Shown: positions 12,179 through 58,505 of the stretch, piece by piece | How the letters are laid out: the number at the start of each line of letters is the position of its first letter | Numbering within the stretch: position 1 is the first letter of the stretch | DNA from: Powellomyces hirtus | Taxonomy: Eukaryota > Chytridiomycota > Chytridiomycetes > Spizellomycetales > Powellomycetaceae | DNA: 64,000 nt | Direction: 5' to 3' | NCBI GenBank assembly: GCA_025526995.1 | Contig: JAHLKG010000021.1 | Coordinates: 124,001 to 188,000 of the forward strand | Position numbers and translations under genes: made by a program | The notes under the pieces: generated by a model | Told to the model about the DNA's origin: nothing | Database searches by the model: none | The model's input: the letters and a program-made list of their open reading frames with translations, nothing else

Positions 12179-15100
12179 ATGGTCCTTGCACCGTTCGTCG
12201 GCATGGTTTATGCCTTGGCCACCATCTTCCTCGTCGCCTCTCCGGCCTTCGTCGACGCCGCCATCCACATTAAAGGTCGTGGGTACACGGGCGGTGACTA
12301 CCCGTTTGAACTCACTCGTCTCGTCGGTCCCGAGGCGTGTCCTGCTGCACCCTGGATGCGTCACGTTCCTCTCGCTGCATTCGGTGCTGATCCTCTCAAG
12401 GCATCGGCGGTTTGCGGTCGCTGTGTCAAGGTCTCCACCTCCCACTCTGGCACTTCATCTGTCGTCCGAATCATCGATATTACTAAGAGGGTATGTATCT
12501 AAAAACTTTCTCGCACCCGTTATCCCCTTTGCAACGACCTCACATTCGCTGACCATGTACCGTCGCAAATTATTAACCTCGCTACGATCCTTTGTCTCAT
12601 AGATCTCCCGTGGTCGTCTCGCTCTCTCTGAGGACGCGCTCCAAGAGCTCGGTCTTCCCGGGCGCACCTCGGCTCACTTTAAGTGGGAAGAGGTTGAGTG
12701 CCCCGAGACTCCCGAACTCGTCGAACAAGTGTTCAAGCGCGACACGCCCTCCAACAATATGCCCGTCTTCATCTGGAAGGAAATGAAGCCTTCCCAGAAA
12801 GAAGTCGAGGTCGCCATCGCCAAGCGGGAGCACGCTCTTGCTCGTCGTCAAGGTCCCAACCCTTCGGTTACGGCCACGTCCACATCTACCCTGATCAGCG
12901 CTACCCCGGCTTGCCCTACTGTCATCGTCTACGCTCAACACATCCAAGACTGCACAAACGTGACAACCACCTCGGGTACTGTTACCGCCACGCCTACCGA
13001 GACCTTGACCACGACCATTGACACCACAATCACGGTTACCCCGACCCCCGGCTCAACCGTTATCTCCTCCACTCCTATCGTCACCGTCACCGTCAGCACC
13101 ACCGTAATCACTCCCACACCTGGCTCCTCCACCGAGGTTCCTACCGGCTCTACCGATATTCCATCTGGCTCTACCGATGTCCCATCTGGCTCGACTACCA
13201 TCGTTGTCCCGTCCGGTTCGACCACTCCCGTTGTTACCACGACCGTAGTCACCACCATCGTCGCCAGCTCGTCCAGCTCCTCCACCTCCACTCGTCCCTT
13301 CCCAACTCCCCCGGACAACAGCGGTTCCACCCTCACCGGCTCCACAATTGGTACCACTGATGTGGGATCATCTACTGATATCGTTGGCTCCACCACTCCA
13401 GTCCCATCAGGCTCCACCACTCCCGTTGTCACCACCACCATTACCACCGTCGTCACTACTCCCGTCCCCAGTGGATCTACTGACATTCCATCTGGCACGA
13501 CAACTGATGTCCCATCGGGTTCCACCTCCATTGCCGTTCCTTCTGGATCCACCGACGTCCCACCTGGCACAACCACTGATGTTCCGTCTGGTTCGTCGAC
13601 CGTCATCGTCCCATCTGGTTCCACGACTACTGGCGTCTCCACCACTGAAGTGCCTTCTGGTTCGACCTCTCCTGTACCATCTGGAACCACCACTGATGTG
13701 ACCGCAACTGGAACAAGCACTGATGTCCCGTCCGGCTCCACTTCCCTTGTTGTGCCCTCGGATTCTACTACCGTCATCGGATCAACGACTGTTGTCATTC
13801 CCTCGGGCTCAACCACCGTTGTGGGATCCACCACCGTTGTCGTTCCAACTGGCTCTACCACCGACGTCGGATCATCGACTATCGTTGTTCCATCTGGCTC
13901 TACAACTCCCGTCCCCACCACGACCGTCATCACTACCATTGTAACCAGTCCCTCGATCTCCTCAACCTCTTCTCGTCCCTTCCCCACTCCTCCTGACAAC
14001 AGCGGTTCCACCCTGACTGGCTCCACCGTTGGTACCACCGATTTCGGATCCTCCACTGATGTCGTCGGATCTAGCACTGCAGTACCAAGCGGAACCACCT
14101 CCGTCTTCACCACCACATCGGGAACTGAGACTGTCACCTTCACGGTCACCACCACTCCTGTGCCCACCGACACCACTGTTGTTCCTTCTGGTAGCTCTTC
14201 GATCCCCAGCGGCACGGTCACCGCCACCTTTACCGTCACCACTGCGACCACCTCGGCGGAATCTACTACAGATGTTGGCACTACCACCGTCGTCGTCCCA
14301 TCTGGTTCGACCACTCCCGCCGGTACCACGACCATTACTACAGTTGTCACCAGTCCCTCAACCTCCTCAACCTCCTCTCGTCCCTTCCCCACTCCTCCGG
14401 ACAACAGTGGTTCTACCCTCACCGGCTCTACTGTCGGTAGCACCGATATCGGATCCTCTACGGTCACTGTTTCTACCACTACTGTCATCACCACCGTCAC
14501 TTCTTCACCTACACTTTCTACCTCCATTGTGACCACCACCGAAGTGCCTTCCGGCTCAACTTCCCTTGTTCCGAGTGACTCGACCACCATCGTTGACCCA
14601 TCTGGCTCCACCACTCCTGGTGGCTCGTCTACCGATGTCCCGTCTGGCACAACTTCCGATGTCACTGGAACCTCCACCTCCGTACCTCCCATCACCACCA
14701 CGACCATCGTCACCACCGCCACCTCTTCCACCACCTCTCAGACTGAGCCCAGCACCACTGGCGTCACCGTGTCCACCACCGAAGTTCCCTCCACCACCAC
14801 CGACTTTGGGACCACCACCGACGTTGGAACTACCACCGACGTTGGAACTACCACTACCGTTGCTGGGACTACCACTACTGGGACCGTCACCGTGTCTACG
14901 ACCATTGTCACCCAGACCACTGTTCCTCCCACGACTACCGTGTCAACCACATTCACCATCACTGCGACACCTTCGGCCACGGAGACTCCCACGAGCACTT
15001 CGACCAGCTCTCGCCCGTTCCCTACTCCTCCAGACAACGCGGGCAACCCAGCCCGCCGTCTCTGCACCGTTCAAGATGCCCCGCGTGCACCCGCCGGACT

Positions 15101-15518
15101 CAACCAGTGCGACTACACTGTGCAACGCGGCTCTTGCTCCTTCCCGCTCAAGAACCAGGATGCGGACGGTTGCACATACACAGTCACCATCAACGCCAAA
15201 CCGGATGGTCCCGTTCAGTTCGGTTACTGGGCCCTCGTCAGCGCTTGCCGAAACAACCAGTACGTCAGCCGATACCGCGGGGCTCACATCACCGGAGGCT
15301 CCTACCAGTTCGCGGCCAACCCGCACTACATCTTCAACCCGCAGCAGGCGCTCTTCAACACTCCGCTACTCGCCAACCAGACCACTCAGTTCTCGTTCAC
15401 CATGGCATGGCCCAGATTTTCGGACTTGTCAGCCGAACTCGAACTCTCAACCCCGGACGTCTCGGTCTTCTGCCCCAAGACCCCCGTCCTCGGCTTCAGC
15501 CCACTGCCCTTCTGCTAA
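12179..15518 (+). CDS. secreted DPBB-domain protein with very long Ser/Thr stalk and Cys-containing C-terminal domain
   Basis: Two exons, 12179-12490 and 12603-15518, give 1075 residues. Residues 1-27 form a signal peptide. Residues ~30-150 look like a double-psi beta-barrel (RlpA/expansin-like): AVCGRCVKVSTSHSGTSSVV, RIIDITKR, ALSEDALQELG, AHFKWEEVECP. Residues ~165-915 are Thr/Ser/Val/Pro-rich, built from short PSGSTT/DVPSG-type units and likely heavily O-glycosylated. A distinct motif, SSRPFPTPPDNSGSTLTGST, occurs at 13292-13346, 13973-14030 and 14379-14436, and a fourth shortened copy (RPFPTPPDN) at about 15009 leads into the C-terminal domain. That ~155-residue domain has several Cys, is not low complexity and I do not recognise it. 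There is no clear GPI tail, so it is probably secreted or wall-bound. DPBB domains in fungi bind wall or plant polysaccharides; substrate here is unknown. Confidence 0.85.
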
Positions 15519-50864: not shown

Positions 50865-52706
50865 TCAGTCAGCATATGCGACCTCCATTCCGTCGATGTT
50901 CGTGAAGCCGATGTTCCTAGGGAATATGCCGCGCTTGGCAAGTCCGTTGCTGAGATCAGCGTAGTCAGCCTCACGGCGTTCGAGAACACTAGCAGGGTCG
51001 GCGAAAATGGGCTCGGTGCCGTTGATGGAGGAGATGGACTTGGTGATGTTAGCGCCGGCAAAGAACTCAGTGTGAGAGAGATCTCGCTTCCTGCTCTGGC
51101 AAACCTCGATGATGCTTGATGCCGAGTTTGCGTTGACGGCGAGGTTCAGGGTGGTGGATGCCATGTTCTTGTACTTTTTGGGATCCATCAGCTTCTCGAT
51201 ATTGAAGGCCCAGAAATAGTGGCCGTTCTTGCGCTTCTCAAACGTGAACCAAACCCAGCCCTTGGCTCGAAAGTGAAGCTCGCCGGTACCGGACACGGTG
51301 CAAATATCCTGCTTGACCTGGTAGCCACATCCTTTGGGCGGAATCTTCTTGTGCACGGTCTGGGTGATCATAGCCATGATGGTATTGGTTGTGGTCTCGC
51401 CCGACGTGTGCGTGTAGTCGATTGAGGTTGAAATCTCGCCAGTGTGTTGCGCAACTGTGGGGACACCGACAGTGACGGAATATTTGAGCCCGAGCCCGAC
51501 CGCGACACTGCTGGTGGTGCTGGTCGAGAGCGAGTACATGCCCTGGGTGGCGATAGAGATATCGATTTGATCACCAACCACGGAGCCGTCGTTGCCGCAA
51601 CCCGTGGTGCAGGTCTGACTGATGGGCGAGCATTGCGCTTCGTTCCATTTTTGGTTGACGAGATGGCCGTGGGTACAGACTTCAGCTTTGAGCACTGGGA
51701 TTTTGGGCATGTTCCAGTTGACGTACATTCCGTTCCATTTACCGTAAAGGCCCCTGACATACTCGGTCATTTCGAACCAGCCGGGCATGTTTTGCACGTC
51801 CTCAAGCTTTGCAGGGTTGCACATCTGGACCAGCTTGCGTGCTGGTGCTTTTGCTTTTGGCTTGGCAGGCGCAGGTTTCTTTGGTGCGAGGACCACCTTG
51901 CTGACTGTCTTCATGGGGCCCTTTTTGGCTGCGGGCGCCTTGGCTGCAGGGTGTTTCTGACCAACAGGCCTCCGAATGGGCTTCGTGATGGGCCTCTTGG
52001 GTTTGATTGCTTTCAGCTTCTCGTACGCTTCCTTGTTGGTTCTGGGTCGTCCAGGAGCGGGCTTGTTAGCGACGGGCTTCTTAGCGACGGGCTTCTTAGC
52101 TGCGGGCGCCTTGGCTGCAGGGTGTTTCTGACCAACAGGCCTCCGAATGGGCTTCGTGATGGGCTTCTTGCGTTTGATTGCTTTCAGCTTCTCGTACGCT
52201 TCCTTGTTGGTTCTGGGTCGTCCAGGAGCGGGCTTGTTAGCGACGGGCTTCTTAACCACGGGCTTCTTAGCTGCGGGCGCCTTGGCTGCAGGGTGTCTCT
52301 GACCAACAGGCCTCTGAATGGGCTTCGTGATGGGCTTCTTGCGTTTGATTGCTTTCAGCTTCTCGTACGTTTCCTTGTTGGTTCTGGGTCGTCCAGCAGC
52401 GGGCTTGTTAGGGCCGTGCTTCCTGGCCGGCTTCTTGGCGGCAGGCTTGCGGGCGGCGGTGTTCTTTTTCGCAGCGGGCTTCTTGGCGGTAGGCTTACGG
52501 ACACCGGCGGGCTGCTTAGCAGCAGGCGGCTTCTTCGTGACAGATTTGCGAGCGGGTCTGGGGTTGACGATGACGTGAGGTGCTGCGTTGTTATTCGCAC
52601 GAGCCATGAGGCTGTTGCCCTCGGTGCTGGGAGCGGAACTGACTACCAATGGCATGGCGGCCATAAACATGACCATCGGGGTCACCAGACTCTTGAAGAG
52701 AACCAT
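50865..52706 (-). CDS. secreted aerolysin/ETX-MTX2-like protein with lysine-rich repeat arm
   Basis: A single exon of 613 residues. Residues 1-25 form a signal peptide. Residues ~50-290 are a Lys/Ala/Pro-rich arm resembling histone H1 tails, containing three tandem 57-residue repeats (residues 105-275) that begin GRPRTNKEAYEKLKAIK. Residues ~295-525 form the globular part with several Cys. Within it, residues ~385-480 show the alternating Ser/Thr-rich strand pattern of aerolysin-fold pore-forming proteins: SSVAVGLGLKYSVTVGVP, STSIDYTHTSGETTTNTI, then a VHKKIPPKGCGY turn. The C-terminal ~75 residues carry three dibasic sites (KR 540-541, RR 577-578, KR 591-592) typical of Kex2 cleavage. The pore-forming assignment is from pattern, not a database match; a non-toxic beta-rich lectin-like secreted protein is the alternative. 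A TATA box lies ~115 bases upstream. Confidence 0.65.
   Translation of the reverse strand: MVLFKSLVTPMVMFMAAMPLVVSSAPSTEGNSLMARANNNAAPHVIVNPRPARKSVTKKPPAAKQPAGVRKPTAKKPAAKKNTAARKPAAKKPARKHGPNKPAAGRPRTNKETYEKLKAIKRKKPITKPIQRPVGQRHPAAKAPAAKKPVVKKPVANKPAPGRPRTNKEAYEKLKAIKRKKPITKPIRRPVGQKHPAAKAPAAKKPVAKKPVANKPAPGRPRTNKEAYEKLKAIKPKRPITKPIRRPVGQKHPAAKAPAAKKGPMKTVSKVVLAPKKPAPAKPKAKAPARKLVQMCNPAKLEDVQNMPGWFEMTEYVRGLYGKWNGMYVNWNMPKIPVLKAEVCTHGHLVNQKWNEAQCSPISQTCTTGCGNDGSVVGDQIDISIATQGMYSLSTSTTSSVAVGLGLKYSVTVGVPTVAQHTGEISTSIDYTHTSGETTTNTIMAMITQTVHKKIPPKGCGYQVKQDICTVSGTGELHFRAKGWVWFTFEKRKNGHYFWAFNIEKLMDPKKYKNMASTTLNLAVNANSASSIIEVCQSRKRDLSHTEFFAGANITKSISSINGTEPIFADPASVLERREADYADLSNGLAKRGIFPRNIGFTNIDGMEVAYAD
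51882..52394 (-). repeat. three tandem 171-nt coding repeats
   Basis: Near-identical units of 171 nt (57 codons) within the lysine-rich arm; for example the string ACCAACAGGCCTC recurs at 171-nt spacing (about 51960, 52131 and 52302). The high identity indicates recent duplication or ongoing homogenisation. Confidence 0.85.
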
Positions 52707-52827: not shown

Positions 52828-54206
52828 TTCCTGTGATGCTTCTATTGCGGCTCATATTGACAGCGGCCCTGCGGCTCAGAGTCTTATGATCCATGTTGCT
52901 AGCTTTTGTTGCGTTGACGCGTCATGGCCTTCGACTGACAGGGTCTGAAAGGACCGTTCTCGTTGCGAGCTGTAAAATCAAGTCGATACCTGGCGCAAAA
53001 CTAAGGAGCCCAGCGACGGTTCCTGTCACATTTATGCTCTTTTGCATGCTAAGAAAGACAAGGATGCGGAACTTTGAGGCTTGATCTGAATGAATCTGAA
53101 CAAAACGTCTACGCGCGTGGCTCAGAAGCGAGTATGGACGTGGGTTGTAGTGGTACCTTCGCCACCGAAGATGCGGAAGGCGACATAGAAAAGCAACGTA
53201 TCCCGAGATTGCGATCCACTATTTTCGGGACCACGGGATCGGGTACAAAACAGCGGGGCAGGAACACCGATGAGGTTACGATGCATCACGTTCAAAACGC
53301 GACCGAGTCTGCTTTATGAAATCCGATCGCTGGACCCCATAAAATGGAATCTGCATGATTCTGCTCACAAAACATGGCCCTGAAAGACGAGTACCTGGCC
53401 TTGGTGAACATCATGAGTTCTCTGCATTGTGAATGCAGCATTATTGTCCAAAAGTGCTCAATTGCCCGGGTATGGTAAGTCCCGATTCAAAGTGCGCATC
53501 TTTTTGACACGAAGACGCGTGGGACCCACGTGGCGCAGTGCTTACTCATTCGATCGACAGTGTGATATCACGTGACGTTGATCAGATTTGAAGGAATGCC
53601 TGCTCGTTTGGGGTTGTCTCGGCACGTTGCCACTTTTCAGACGATGATGATCTCTTCGCAATGAACTGGGCGCGGTGGAAATGGACGGGGGTCGGAAGAG
53701 TCCCTACAGTATTTGTGACCCATGAAAAAAAAACATCCAAGAACAGAAGCAGCTCAGAAAATATCAACGTCTCTGCATCAGCAACGAAGCACCGAGATGC
53801 CCCGTTACCATAAGAGTAGCGATTCTTTTTGGTTGGCTATTCTCATCTTTGCTGCTTCGCGCTTACAGAATCGGTTTCCCAAGCAAAGGCTTCCGGCGTC
53901 CAATGTGCCATGTCTTATCAATGACTGATCAGCGACTTGGTAGATTGTAACGAGAAGCTATGCGTTGCATTGTCGTTATTATGGACAAATGCGAACAAAA
54001 GTAAGAAATGGCGAAGAGGCCGAAGAAGCGTTTGGCGGCCAGTTTTGTAGGAGGGAGAAAAAATGATGTGTGCATGTGATCTCATGTGACCGCGTGCGCA
54101 GCACCTCGGTTCGCACTTCCCTCTAGCTTTTTCCCGTTTTCCTTTTTTTTTGTGCAATTCACACGCACATTTCACTCCAGCAACCAATACGTGCGAGGTC
54201 TTCAGA
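52828..54206. other. divergent intergenic region, 1.4 kb
   Basis: Upstream of the aerolysin-like gene (-) and the basic-motif array gene (+). Frames such as 53074-53319 show no domain or splice support. Confidence 0.4.
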
Positions 54207-57200
54207 ATGCCCAGCTTGGATACGCCGCGAACTCCAATACGACCATATGTCGCTAAACTATGTGCAAGTCCGGGCGAGTCAATGTACGCGGTGTCGCCGA
54301 GGGAGAACCTGGGAGAAGTTACGGACTTTGCCCTGCGCGTGGCTCTGCAACGACTTCCGCCAAGCACGCAAACTTTGTCAACACTTCCAACGCAGCTGTT
54401 CACCGTGCTATGCGCGAATCCCGCTACGACAAAGGTCTCGGAGCTGCAAGAATATCTGACCGGTCTGAATGGTCCAAGCTTGAAGAGCGTGGCACAAATA
54501 TACGCTGGTCACCCGCGTGCCGACTACCCGCTAGAATACCGCAAACCTCTACTGGAACTCAACAATGTCAATGATACCGAGGTTCTGAGAGTGGTGGTCT
54601 ATACCAAAGACTATTTTGTCGTACCGCACAACCTCACGCTCAACGAGGCTTTCGATTCTGGAGAGCTGATTTATGTTGCGAAGGTGGCTCAGACAGAGTC
54701 TCTCGCGAGGCCAGCCACTCTATCTGCCAGCTTTTTGCGCGAGCTTACGATACCAAGACAGAAATTCGATACAATGTTGACGAAGCTGCAACCACTTCTG
54801 GACACTTTATCCAGTGTTGTAAAGCGTAAGCGTGAGGATATCGACTCGGAGAAGCCCGAGATACTTGCATTAGTGGAGCCTGATGGCATTACAAAGAAAC
54901 GCCGAAAGCGTGGACAACGAAAGGATCGGCCAAGTGACCTCCCCCAGTCTTCCCCCGACGGGATGTCAAGCCATGAGGAGGAGGTTATGAACGGCTCCAC
55001 CGTAGACCAAGTTCCCGTGGTTCCATCTCATGAATTTTCGCAGGCTGAAGTGGGCGCATCAATTGAAGCAACCGTGCAGTCCACGTCCCCTCCTTCAAAC
55101 CCTGGCGTTTACGCTGTCTCATCCTTGGACCAACTACAAGACACAGAAGCGGATGTACAGCCTCCTCCGCTACGCCGGAAACGGAATACCAGAGGCAAAA
55201 GGACGAAGCGGAAAGAGATGGAGGAGAATGTGGATGATGAACCGTGTACAGCGCCCAAAATGGACGCCTTGTTGCACGATGACCAGCTGGTACCCCAACG
55301 TTCGGGTAGTACAAATATGGAGATTGCGCCCTCGGTAGCACCCGACAACGCCGAGCCACGACTGCCGTTCCTAAGTGAATTGAAGGTCATCTTGGAGCAG
55401 GAGCTAGATTACTCAGAGCAAAATGTGGTGAGCTCGAGAAAGCGGACGACACGCGGCAAAAGAACAGGCCGGAAGGAGAATGCGACGGGCGAGCCGTCCG
55501 ATGTTGATCACGAACCATCCATAACGCTCGTAGAGAACGTCTCAGGACCTGTTGAAAACGCAACTGTCCTCGAGGACACGCCATTTGAGAAGGAACCCGT
55601 GGCACCCCAAGACGCAGGCCATCATAGTGAACCAAATGTGTTCGCGACAACGGAACAGCCAGATGAGGATACTGAACCATTGCCGAGTGTTGGGCAGGAG
55701 AGTACGGAGACTGTACCGACACCTGGAAAACGGAAGACCAGAGGCAAAAGGACGCATCGGAAGAGGGCTGGTGATGAAGTTTTGCCGACAAGCGGACAAT
55801 CTGCCGATGAGTTAGAAGCAACGCATGAAAAGCCCCCTCCGAACACCGCAGAAGAGCACAGTCACCAGGAGAGCACGCCAACATTTTTAGAAACAGAGAC
55901 TTCACAAATGGAAGTTGATGGGGAGGAAGTAGCGGACCTCGAAATACCACATGATTCCGAAAGCGATGTGCCTTTGTCCGACGACGAACCACCAGTATCC
56001 GTTTCTTCAAAAGTACCTGGACCGGTCGCGCACGATCTGTCTCCTGACGAGAAACCAGGTTTGAGCAAGCCAAAGCGGAAGGCTGCAGACAAGAACACCC
56101 CGCCAAAGCTCAAGACGTCGAAAGCAGAAAAGGGCAACACAGCTGTTGAAGAAGGATGCGCGTCAGCCGCTTTCGCCCCTGTTCCGAGCAATAATGATGC
56201 GCCAGCCATTTTGGCTGGAAAGCGCAGAACTCGAGGCAAGCGGACAAGTCGAGAAAAGAAGACAGAAGAAGCAACTACGGAGATTCAGCATGTCAATGAG
56301 ACGCCAGTCCTCTTCACCGAGAAGCGGAAACTGTCGATGATGGACGGTGGCGATCAGAGCTCCGATGATGAGGCACCTGTTGCGGTCTCGAGTAAGATGA
56401 TACCAGATCCCAAGACAGCTATCAAATACAATCTGATATCGTCATCTGAAAACATGTCGAGTCCAGACAAAAAGCCCAAAGTCCAAGACGAGCCACTGAA
56501 GAAGAAACAGCGAACGAGGGGCAAGATAGTGGAGCGAGAGATTGCACGACAGACTGATAAGCCTTTATCGGAACCAGATGCGAAAATATCTATGCCACCG
56601 CCTTCTGCTAGCGCACCTGCAGTGGAATCCCATGTAATCAGTGCGCCAGCACCCACTCCTGAGAACCGCAAAGCTCGCCGCGCGAGGTTGCAGGCAAAAA
56701 CACGTGGCGCTCAAATATCATCGGCCTCCACGCCATCCAGCGACAAACCGTTCCCACCAGAGCCCACTACGGTACTTCCTTCCATTCAGAACTCGCCCGT
56801 GGAAGGCGAGCCCCTTTCAAGCCCTCACAAAGAGACATCTGCCGACTCCAAGCATAGCACACAGACCATTGCCAATGTCTGCGAGACGCCAACGTCCGCA
56901 CTTAAAAACCGTCGCGCTCGACGGGAGAGATTGCGACGATTGTCGCAACTCGCATCTCAGCCAAAGCTCAGCTCGGCATTGCTCGCCGACAACGTGAGTG
57001 AGAAGCCTGCGTTGGTCTCCCAAGAAACCCCTCCTACGGGCACAGAGGCGACTTCTGGTGAAAAGCAATTATCCCATCCTGGGGCGCTCTTGGCTGAACC
57101 TGTCGCTCCCAATCTTACGGAACCCCTCGTTGTTGCCCTTCCGTCTGTACCTGAAAACCGGAAGGTTCGACGCGAGAGGCTGCGACGGGCTTCTGCATTC

Positions 57201-58505
57201 GGATCTCAATCCACAACGGACTCCACATTGCCTGCTCAAGATGCTGGACCTCAACATGGAACGCCGACATCAAAATCTCTACCGATCACGCCAGTTGTGA
57301 AGAACGTTGCACCGTCATACGATGCACCACCATCAAACCTTCCCGCCATTGCAGCGGGTGTTAAGCCCCCTGCGTTCGATGCAAAGGAGAGGGGAACGCA
57401 CGGCCTCCAGGCCGCCCCATGCACACCGACAAACCGCAAGGTCCGGCGCGAGGTACTGCGACAATCATCTCAATCGGCTTACAAACCAACCTCGGATTTG
57501 CCAGTGCCCGTCGATGATGCTACCTATCATCATGAAGCACCCACTTCAGACTCCGTAACATCCACACCCGCTACCAACAACAACACGCCGTCGGACATCG
57601 GACCAACATCAACCACTCCAGCTACTACAACGAGTGCCGGTATCACTTCTCTCAATGACCCGGAGAAAGGCACACTGGTTCTCGATCCGCCTGCATCGAC
57701 ACCAGCAAACCGTAAGCCGCGACGGAAGAGATTGAGGCAGGCTTCAGACTACCTGGCTCTCTTGATATCAACTGCCACTTCACCTAAAAAGGCTGGCACA
57801 GAAGTCAGCAAATCCACCACAGTGAAAGAAAAATTGCCAGCGACTCCTGGGATTGCAGTACCGGATGATCCGAAAATTGAGAATGAGAGGACCTCTTCTG
57901 GGGTGCCAATCGTGGATTTGGAGTATAGCGAGGGCACACGCCACGGGTCGTTACAAGGCTCCCAACTCGCTGCTCAATTAACGTCGCCTCCCGATTCGTC
58001 GAGCGGTGAAATGAAAGATCATCATGATATTATGTCCAAATCCGTGTCCCAAACAACAAATTCCGCCTCTCATCAGCCCGTGATGGATCACACACCATCG
58101 CTAGCCACTCAGAAGAGACGAACGCGCGGCGCAAGGAGGAACCGAAACGAAACAATACAACGTAGCCTACAAAGCGCATCGTCGGCATCAAGTGACCACG
58201 CATCGCAATCCCAGTCGCAGAGCACATTATCGCAAATTTTGGACTCATCTCCTTACTTTCACGTGGAGCAACTAAACAATTACATCGATACCCTTGCGCT
58301 ACCGGATTCTCTGGACCTCTACAATGAGGTCGTGGACATCACTCCGGCTGCAGCGAATCGCATTGCTAGGGAAGAGCATGATCTGGAAAACCACCTGCAT
58401 GGTATTCTAGACGCGCCAACCACGCCGTCCCGGCCCCAGACGTCTGGTGCAAAGACGAGCATAGTGAAAGCTACGGAAGAAAAGTCGATCTGGGATAGCA
58501 TATAG
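54207..58505 (+). CDS. large disordered protein with regularly spaced basic motifs
   Basis: A single exon of 1432 residues. I start at the ATG 54207 (MPSLDTPRTPIRPYV); the frame continues 19 codons upstream from a non-ATG codon. Residues ~35-205 look folded (FALRVALQRLPPSTQTL, SVAQIYAGHPRADYPLEYRK, VLRVVVYTKDYFVVPHNLT), unknown family. The remainder is acidic disorder punctuated by ~12 basic motifs. Class A is TRGKRTxRK-like, near 55170, 55432, 55725, 56217, 56502 and 58110, with a weaker one at 54892. Class B is NRKxRRERLRxxS, near 56662, 56904, 57153, 57430 and 57706, often preceded by TP. Spacing is mostly 80-98 residues. The C-terminal ~100 residues (LSQILDSSPYFHVEQLNNYI, DLYNEVVDITPAAANRIARE) look like a second folded or helical element. 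A nuclear or cytoskeletal scaffold is possible; function unknown. Confidence 0.75.
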   Translation: MPSLDTPRTPIRPYVAKLCASPGESMYAVSPRENLGEVTDFALRVALQRLPPSTQTLSTLPTQLFTVLCANPATTKVSELQEYLTGLNGPSLKSVAQIYAGHPRADYPLEYRKPLLELNNVNDTEVLRVVVYTKDYFVVPHNLTLNEAFDSGELIYVAKVAQTESLARPATLSASFLRELTIPRQKFDTMLTKLQPLLDTLSSVVKRKREDIDSEKPEILALVEPDGITKKRRKRGQRKDRPSDLPQSSPDGMSSHEEEVMNGSTVDQVPVVPSHEFSQAEVGASIEATVQSTSPPSNPGVYAVSSLDQLQDTEADVQPPPLRRKRNTRGKRTKRKEMEENVDDEPCTAPKMDALLHDDQLVPQRSGSTNMEIAPSVAPDNAEPRLPFLSELKVILEQELDYSEQNVVSSRKRTTRGKRTGRKENATGEPSDVDHEPSITLVENVSGPVENATVLEDTPFEKEPVAPQDAGHHSEPNVFATTEQPDEDTEPLPSVGQESTETVPTPGKRKTRGKRTHRKRAGDEVLPTSGQSADELEATHEKPPPNTAEEHSHQESTPTFLETETSQMEVDGEEVADLEIPHDSESDVPLSDDEPPVSVSSKVPGPVAHDLSPDEKPGLSKPKRKAADKNTPPKLKTSKAEKGNTAVEEGCASAAFAPVPSNNDAPAILAGKRRTRGKRTSREKKTEEATTEIQHVNETPVLFTEKRKLSMMDGGDQSSDDEAPVAVSSKMIPDPKTAIKYNLISSSENMSSPDKKPKVQDEPLKKKQRTRGKIVEREIARQTDKPLSEPDAKISMPPPSASAPAVESHVISAPAPTPENRKARRARLQAKTRGAQISSASTPSSDKPFPPEPTTVLPSIQNSPVEGEPLSSPHKETSADSKHSTQTIANVCETPTSALKNRRARRERLRRLSQLASQPKLSSALLADNVSEKPALVSQETPPTGTEATSGEKQLSHPGALLAEPVAPNLTEPLVVALPSVPENRKVRRERLRRASAFGSQSTTDSTLPAQDAGPQHGTPTSKSLPITPVVKNVAPSYDAPPSNLPAIAAGVKPPAFDAKERGTHGLQAAPCTPTNRKVRREVLRQSSQSAYKPTSDLPVPVDDATYHHEAPTSDSVTSTPATNNNTPSDIGPTSTTPATTTSAGITSLNDPEKGTLVLDPPASTPANRKPRRKRLRQASDYLALLISTATSPKKAGTEVSKSTTVKEKLPATPGIAVPDDPKIENERTSSGVPIVDLEYSEGTRHGSLQGSQLAAQLTSPPDSSSGEMKDHHDIMSKSVSQTTNSASHQPVMDHTPSLATQKRRTRGARRNRNETIQRSLQSASSASSDHASQSQSQSTLSQILDSSPYFHVEQLNNYIDTLALPDSLDLYNEVVDITPAAANRIAREEHDLENHLHGILDAPTTPSRPQTSGAKTSIVKATEEKSIWDSI

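Follow-up and report, generated by a model that had tools for sequence, protein, structure and literature searches.

A candidate aerolysin-like protein with a polycationic arm in the chytrid Powellomyces hirtus

In 2025, K62 of Saccharomyces was presented as the first member of the aerolysin family from yeasts and as the entry to a large group of fungal proteins whose function is unknown, according to the available portions of PMC12691639. In the same portions, the top structural match of K62 is parasporin-2 (PDB 2ZTB), an aerolysin-family toxin of Bacillus thuringiensis whose core has no disulfides; changing cysteine to alanine abolishes K62 function, a KR site lies between the N-terminal part and the core, and the homologues include Chytridiomycota (0.5% of the top 1000). 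Here we describe a 613-amino-acid protein encoded in a 64,000-nucleotide stretch of the Powellomyces hirtus genome (contig JAHLKG010000021.1, positions 124,001 to 188,000), referred to below as the window. All coordinates are positions in the window, and the gene and its features lie on the minus strand.

The window protein shares with K62-like proteins, as far as the available text describes them, a fungal origin, a secreted-type start, a parasporin-2-like core, cysteines in that core and a dibasic site. However, the dibasic site of K62 precedes the core, whereas those of the window protein come after it, a comparison made by description and not by sequence. A polycationic arm, found in two positions, also sets the chytrid proteins apart; the word "lysine-rich" is absent from the main text of the K62 paper (PMC12691639). 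Fungal aerolysin-like killer proteins are known, and the novelty lies in the polycationic arm with its two placements and in dibasic sites that follow the core. Our literature search returned no paper joining aerolysin with lysine-rich or polycationic arms, and nothing on aerolysin-like proteins in chytrids beyond the count in PMC12691639. Titles and the opening parts of abstracts on P. hirtus and Geranomyces variabilis held nothing on these proteins, and the available part of PMC11291939 mentions neither aerolysin nor Powellomyces.

We interpret the window protein as a secreted protein of the aerolysin fold, most likely a pore former directed against competing or prey microbes, with the arm serving as an anchor and a C-terminal piece being cut off (probability about 0.6).

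Gene layout and the aerolysin-like domain

The open reading frame at 50865..52706 is uninterrupted from ATG to stop. The coordinates in the original prediction, which was made from the sequence alone, were exact, although it did not give the strand. From the N to the C terminus, the protein consists of a signal-peptide-like start, the polycationic arm, a cysteine-rich beta domain and a C-terminal part that bears the dibasic sites. The combination that had been called unusual, a signal-like start, an arm of about 240 residues rich in Lys, Ala and Pro, repeats and three dibasic sites, is all present in the sequence. The start (residues 1 to 25, 52632..52706) has a hydrophobic core and, by eye, a putative cleavage position after SSA. 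Residues 1 to 24 are identical to the paralog P0002 at 14 of 23 aligned positions. Visual inspection suggested N termini of this kind in each of the nine chytrid proteins considered here, and hydropathy was computed for seven.

The beta domain (residues 296 to 536, 51099..51821) contains eight cysteines. When a three-member profile was compared with the PDB, parasporin-2 was the top match (E value, 2e-5). Identity between parasporin-2 and the window domain was 14 to 16%, and the match covered the full length of the toxin with the domain only, leaving the arm outside. The original prediction had pointed to structure prediction and a fold search, and both favored its proposal: the model (pLDDT, 64.8; the alignment included two parasporin-2-like rows) shows, with moderate confidence, a core of long beta-strands and an insertion loop, and a search with it gave 30 PDB matches at an E value of ≤0.001, all of them aerolysin-family chains by their titles or as known members of the family. 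The aerolysin-like parts of Mpp75Aa1.1 (7ML9) and Sarol-1 (7R55) matched the domain by both sequence and fold. There was one match at an E value of ≤0.001 in a viral fold library, to a protein without a name. The suggested ETX/MTX2 test was borderline: residues 290 to 613 scored 22 as printed against ETX_MTX2 (PF03318; gathering score, 22), the whole protein scored 19.9, below that score, and the profile was matched only in part, by residues 391 to 457.

Several results added little to the aerolysin interpretation. The alternating-strand pattern, which had been offered as evidence for it, did not clearly exceed that of shuffled sequences: the best 12-residue alternation within residues 296 to 541 was reached by 195 of 2,000 shuffles and that of residues 400 to 434 by 95 of 2,000. 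Profile searches of the PDB with the two proteins that carry N-terminal arms, with seven chytrid rows and with the six rows that have C-terminal arms gave little. Folding from the single sequence was uninformative (pLDDT, 29.5). Because alternation alone is not significant, the strand-rich character of the domain rests on the structure model, and alternation was dropped as evidence for an insertion hairpin. Residues 400 to 434 (51405..51509), flanked by long strands and modeled with low confidence, are assigned by analogy as a putative membrane-insertion hairpin region. Taken together, the profile and fold evidence gives moderate support to the aerolysin-family reading of the domain, and the original prediction is partly supported.

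An aerolysin fold is not always toxic, as one of the fold matches, 2d42, is titled a non-toxic crystal protein, and none of the chytrid members has a known activity. The window protein might have a structural or storage role in the wall or matrix, without pore activity and with the arm as an anchor. However, the closest solved relatives carry toxin or pore-former titles, and we consider this alternative improbable.

Relatives within the Powellomycetaceae

Eight relatives were found, all from the Powellomycetaceae. One shares the layout of the window protein, six carry a shorter basic arm at the C terminus that leads into an acidic tail, and one lacks a clear arm. Searches of the P. hirtus genome covered the 29.3-Mb assembly (60 contigs) and recovered the window gene and two further loci, L003 (49% identity over the domain) and L004 (366 amino acids; 28% identity over part of the core). 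These searches ignore introns and score only the best candidates, so the gene count is a lower bound. L003 is secure as a paralog (E value, 1.2e-96). The link between L004 and the window gene was weak by single sequence: reciprocal searches gave E values of 0.050 and 0.068, and the window gene was matched at an E value of 0.0062 when the query was a relative of L004 from Geranomyces. At the protein level, P0002, which is 48% identical to the window protein, and P0003, which is the L004 protein, are both from P. hirtus. The other six, P0004 to P0009, are all from G. variabilis, of the same family, and were found among 5.8 billion proteins (E values, 2.5e-62 to 7.1e-39) with a profile that contained L004, so that they are primarily relatives of L004; P0005 is 58% identical to the L004 protein.

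When the two proteins with N-terminal arms were compared by profile with six C-terminal-arm proteins, 178 columns aligned with a probability of 83.8. All nine chytrid proteins have six cysteines in the same order. Five of these cysteines (C296, C344, C460, C469 and C536) fall in aligned columns, and the spacing of the last core pair is always nine residues. Thus, the two groups are likely to be related. In a tree of the nine domains and P0011, the N-arm pair was split off by a branch with support of 100/100, and long branches leave the remainder of the tree unsure.

P0010 and P0011, which are 99% identical to each other, were left out of the family (E values of 0.54 and 1.4 in the family search). 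Their profile matched the N-arm pair over 98 columns with a probability of 94.3 and the C-arm group weakly (33.4). P0011 matched parasporin-2 (2ztb) at an E value of 7.3e-13, and both proteins have a lipoprotein-like N terminus by eye. None of the eight named proteins among the ten matches of the family search was from an ascomycete. Two further matches in the P. hirtus genome, L005 and L006, were rejected as chance (E values of 0.28 and 0.58). Stretches matching a sequence pattern in viral contigs and in bacterial and archaeal genomes (167, 111 and 37) included no relative by tblastn. A search of the P. hirtus genome with PF03318 gave no match, yet 14 controls were equally silent, and the search is hence uninformative. 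One protein database query recovered nothing but the window protein, whereas a second query also found the 48%-identical P0002, so absences there are weak. The predicted protein P0006 of G. variabilis is joined to a mitochondrial GrpE (E value, 8.5e-47), probably a fusion error in the gene model.

The polycationic arm

The arm (residues 50 to 291, 51834..52559) comprises 242 residues, of which Lys, Arg, Pro and Ala make up 69%, and carries a net charge of +74. Within it, a 171-bp (57-amino-acid) tandem repeat is present in 2.9 copies with 96% match (51921..52422), and the motif GRPRTNKE recurs at exactly 57-residue spacing, marking three 57-residue units. Between units 2 and 3 there are three amino acid changes and one silent change, whereas unit 1 differs from units 2 and 3 by 16 and 17 amino acid changes, 13 and 12 of which fall within its first 20 residues. 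The repeat is partly recent, since units 2 and 3 are nearly alike, and because the changes between units are mostly not silent, the exact arm sequence is without visible strong constraint. A search for the unit across the genome returned two matches inside the arm itself and one chance match (E value, 1.9).

Positively charged arms recur among the relatives. P0002 has an N-terminal arm of +63 over 148 residues. In P0003, the arm is C-terminal, +17 over 46 residues, and is followed by a tail of -13; five of the six Geranomyces proteins, P0006 being the exception, likewise carry their basic segment (+7 to +12) at the C-terminal side, with a tail of -4 to -13 after it. The repeat units differ among the genes (171 bp in the window gene, 36 and 111 bp in L003 and 15 bp in L004). 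As charge is retained while the unit and its place differ, this comparison suggests that the arms are under selection for charge. Beside the third paralog, a 198-bp tandem repeat of 3.1 copies (97% match; L004:2395-3000) contains runs of 23 to 24 A at the same spacing and had no Rfam match at the gathering score.

The original prediction had likened the arm to histone H1. If the start had been misread, the protein could be a nuclear one resembling histone H1 or HC2, which would be in keeping with a match to HC2 (PF07382; 32.8 bits and an E value of 9.3e-8 for the whole protein, 32.9 bits for the arm alone), with the silence of four shuffled arms against every Pfam family and with weak matches of the arm to histone H2B chains in the PDB (best E value, 0.021). 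However, the HC2 gathering cutoff of 40 was missed, signal-peptide-like starts occur in all nine chytrid proteins, and the domain that follows is rich in cysteine. The likeness is thus one of composition: the HC2 match reflects a KKPxA-like pattern, which is more than composition alone but is no evidence of histone descent. Homology to histones or HC2 was rejected on the sub-cutoff score and the secreted-type start, and we give a nuclear protein almost no credence. Further Pfam families that the arm matched, among them Extensin_1 and VAPB_antitox, all scored below their own cutoffs, and a scan of NCBIfam gave only weak, chance-like matches (FlgH, E value of 0.0094; histone-like models far below cutoff).

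Kex2 is not expected to cut a KR pair when Pro comes next. KR pairs that are not followed by Pro number two in the arm of the window protein and nine in that of P0002, the last four of which are 12 residues apart, one per repeat unit. Arm peptides may therefore be released, and the arm could be a peptide precursor of the kind known as KEX2-processed repeat proteins (KEPs), cut by Kex2 into cationic peptides while the aerolysin-like domain is freed separately. KEPs, which likewise have a signal-peptide-like start, tandem repeats and KR pairs, are widespread in fungi and are listed for 14 of 19 chytrid strains in one survey, in the portions available (PMC7329392; see PMC6339444). Unlike KEPs, the window protein adds a cysteine-rich folded domain, and KR pairs are sparse in its arm (2 in 242 amino acids). 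The third 57-residue unit reads PKRP, not an expected context for cleavage, and among the six C-terminal arms a candidate Kex2 site occurs inside only one (P0009) and at the arm end in P0003, P0008 and P0009; the other three have none. A KEP-like precursor is unlikely but has to be reckoned with.

The arm might instead act as a propiece at the N terminus that holds the domain inactive in the producing cell and is later cut away, similar to the N-terminal part that K62 is proposed to lose at KR. K62 made in yeast is smaller, fitting an N-terminal loss of 9 kDa, and 57% of K62 homologues have a dibasic motif at that boundary (PMC12691639, in the portions available). However, residues 179 to 490 of the window protein contain no [KR]R before a residue other than Pro, the boundary has only RK (residues 290 and 291), and the arm is at the opposite end in the more distant relatives. 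This role for the arm appears distinctly improbable.

C-terminal sites and the proposed function

The three dibasic sites near the C terminus have their last residues at 541, 578 and 592, as originally claimed. They are RKR (residues 539 to 541, 51084..51092), RR (577 and 578, 50973..50978) and KR (591 and 592, 50931..50936), each a candidate Kex2-type site by motif. Their number is mildly unusual: as many [KR]R pairs not before Pro were found in 115 of 10,000 shuffles of residues 537 to 613. All three are basic pairs in P0002 as well, and this conservation is stronger evidence for the sites than their number.

The C-terminal peptide (residues 593 to 613, 50868..50930) is identical to the paralog at 15 of 21 positions, compared with 119 of 239 in the domain and 10 of 36 in residues 537 to 576. 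Among 21-column windows from residue 296 on, 9 of 300 reached 15 identities, and four of the nine were at the tail. The end peptide is thus kept as well as the best parts of the domain, which is more than a discarded spacer needs, and it may have a role of its own. A search of the P. hirtus genome with the last 42 residues found only the window gene and its paralog.

Two other frames in the window, both on the plus strand, are repetitive or basic in character. The 1,451-amino-acid frame at 54150-58505 had no Pfam match at an E value of ≤0.01, and its translation, inspected by eye, shows repeated basic motifs resembling TRGKRTxRK and NRKxRRERLR. That at 12729-15518 (929 amino acids) overlaps several tandem repeats of 18 to 72 bp and is possibly a repetitive surface protein.

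If the window protein is a pore former, its domain would oligomerize and insert a beta-hairpin, as the fold implies. The arm would replace a lectin-type binding domain and anchor the protein to something negatively charged, for example a microbial wall, a membrane or extracellular nucleic acid, and a Kex2-like protease may remove the short C-terminal piece at the dibasic sites during or after secretion. Sarol-1 (7R55) is titled a beta-trefoil lectin, whereas the window protein has a charged arm and matched no lectin family at a Pfam E value of ≤10. More tentatively, the chytrid proteins could form a family of charge-aimed pore formers in which a movable arm, N- or C-terminal and expanded from repeat units that are unrelated between genes, brings the core to anionic microbial surfaces or extracellular DNA, and an acidic or conserved C-terminal propiece silences the protein until a Kex2-like cut.

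If true, this would be a pore former aimed by bulk charge and not by sugar binding, and the natural occurrence of members with N-terminal and C-terminal arms makes the role of the arm directly testable.
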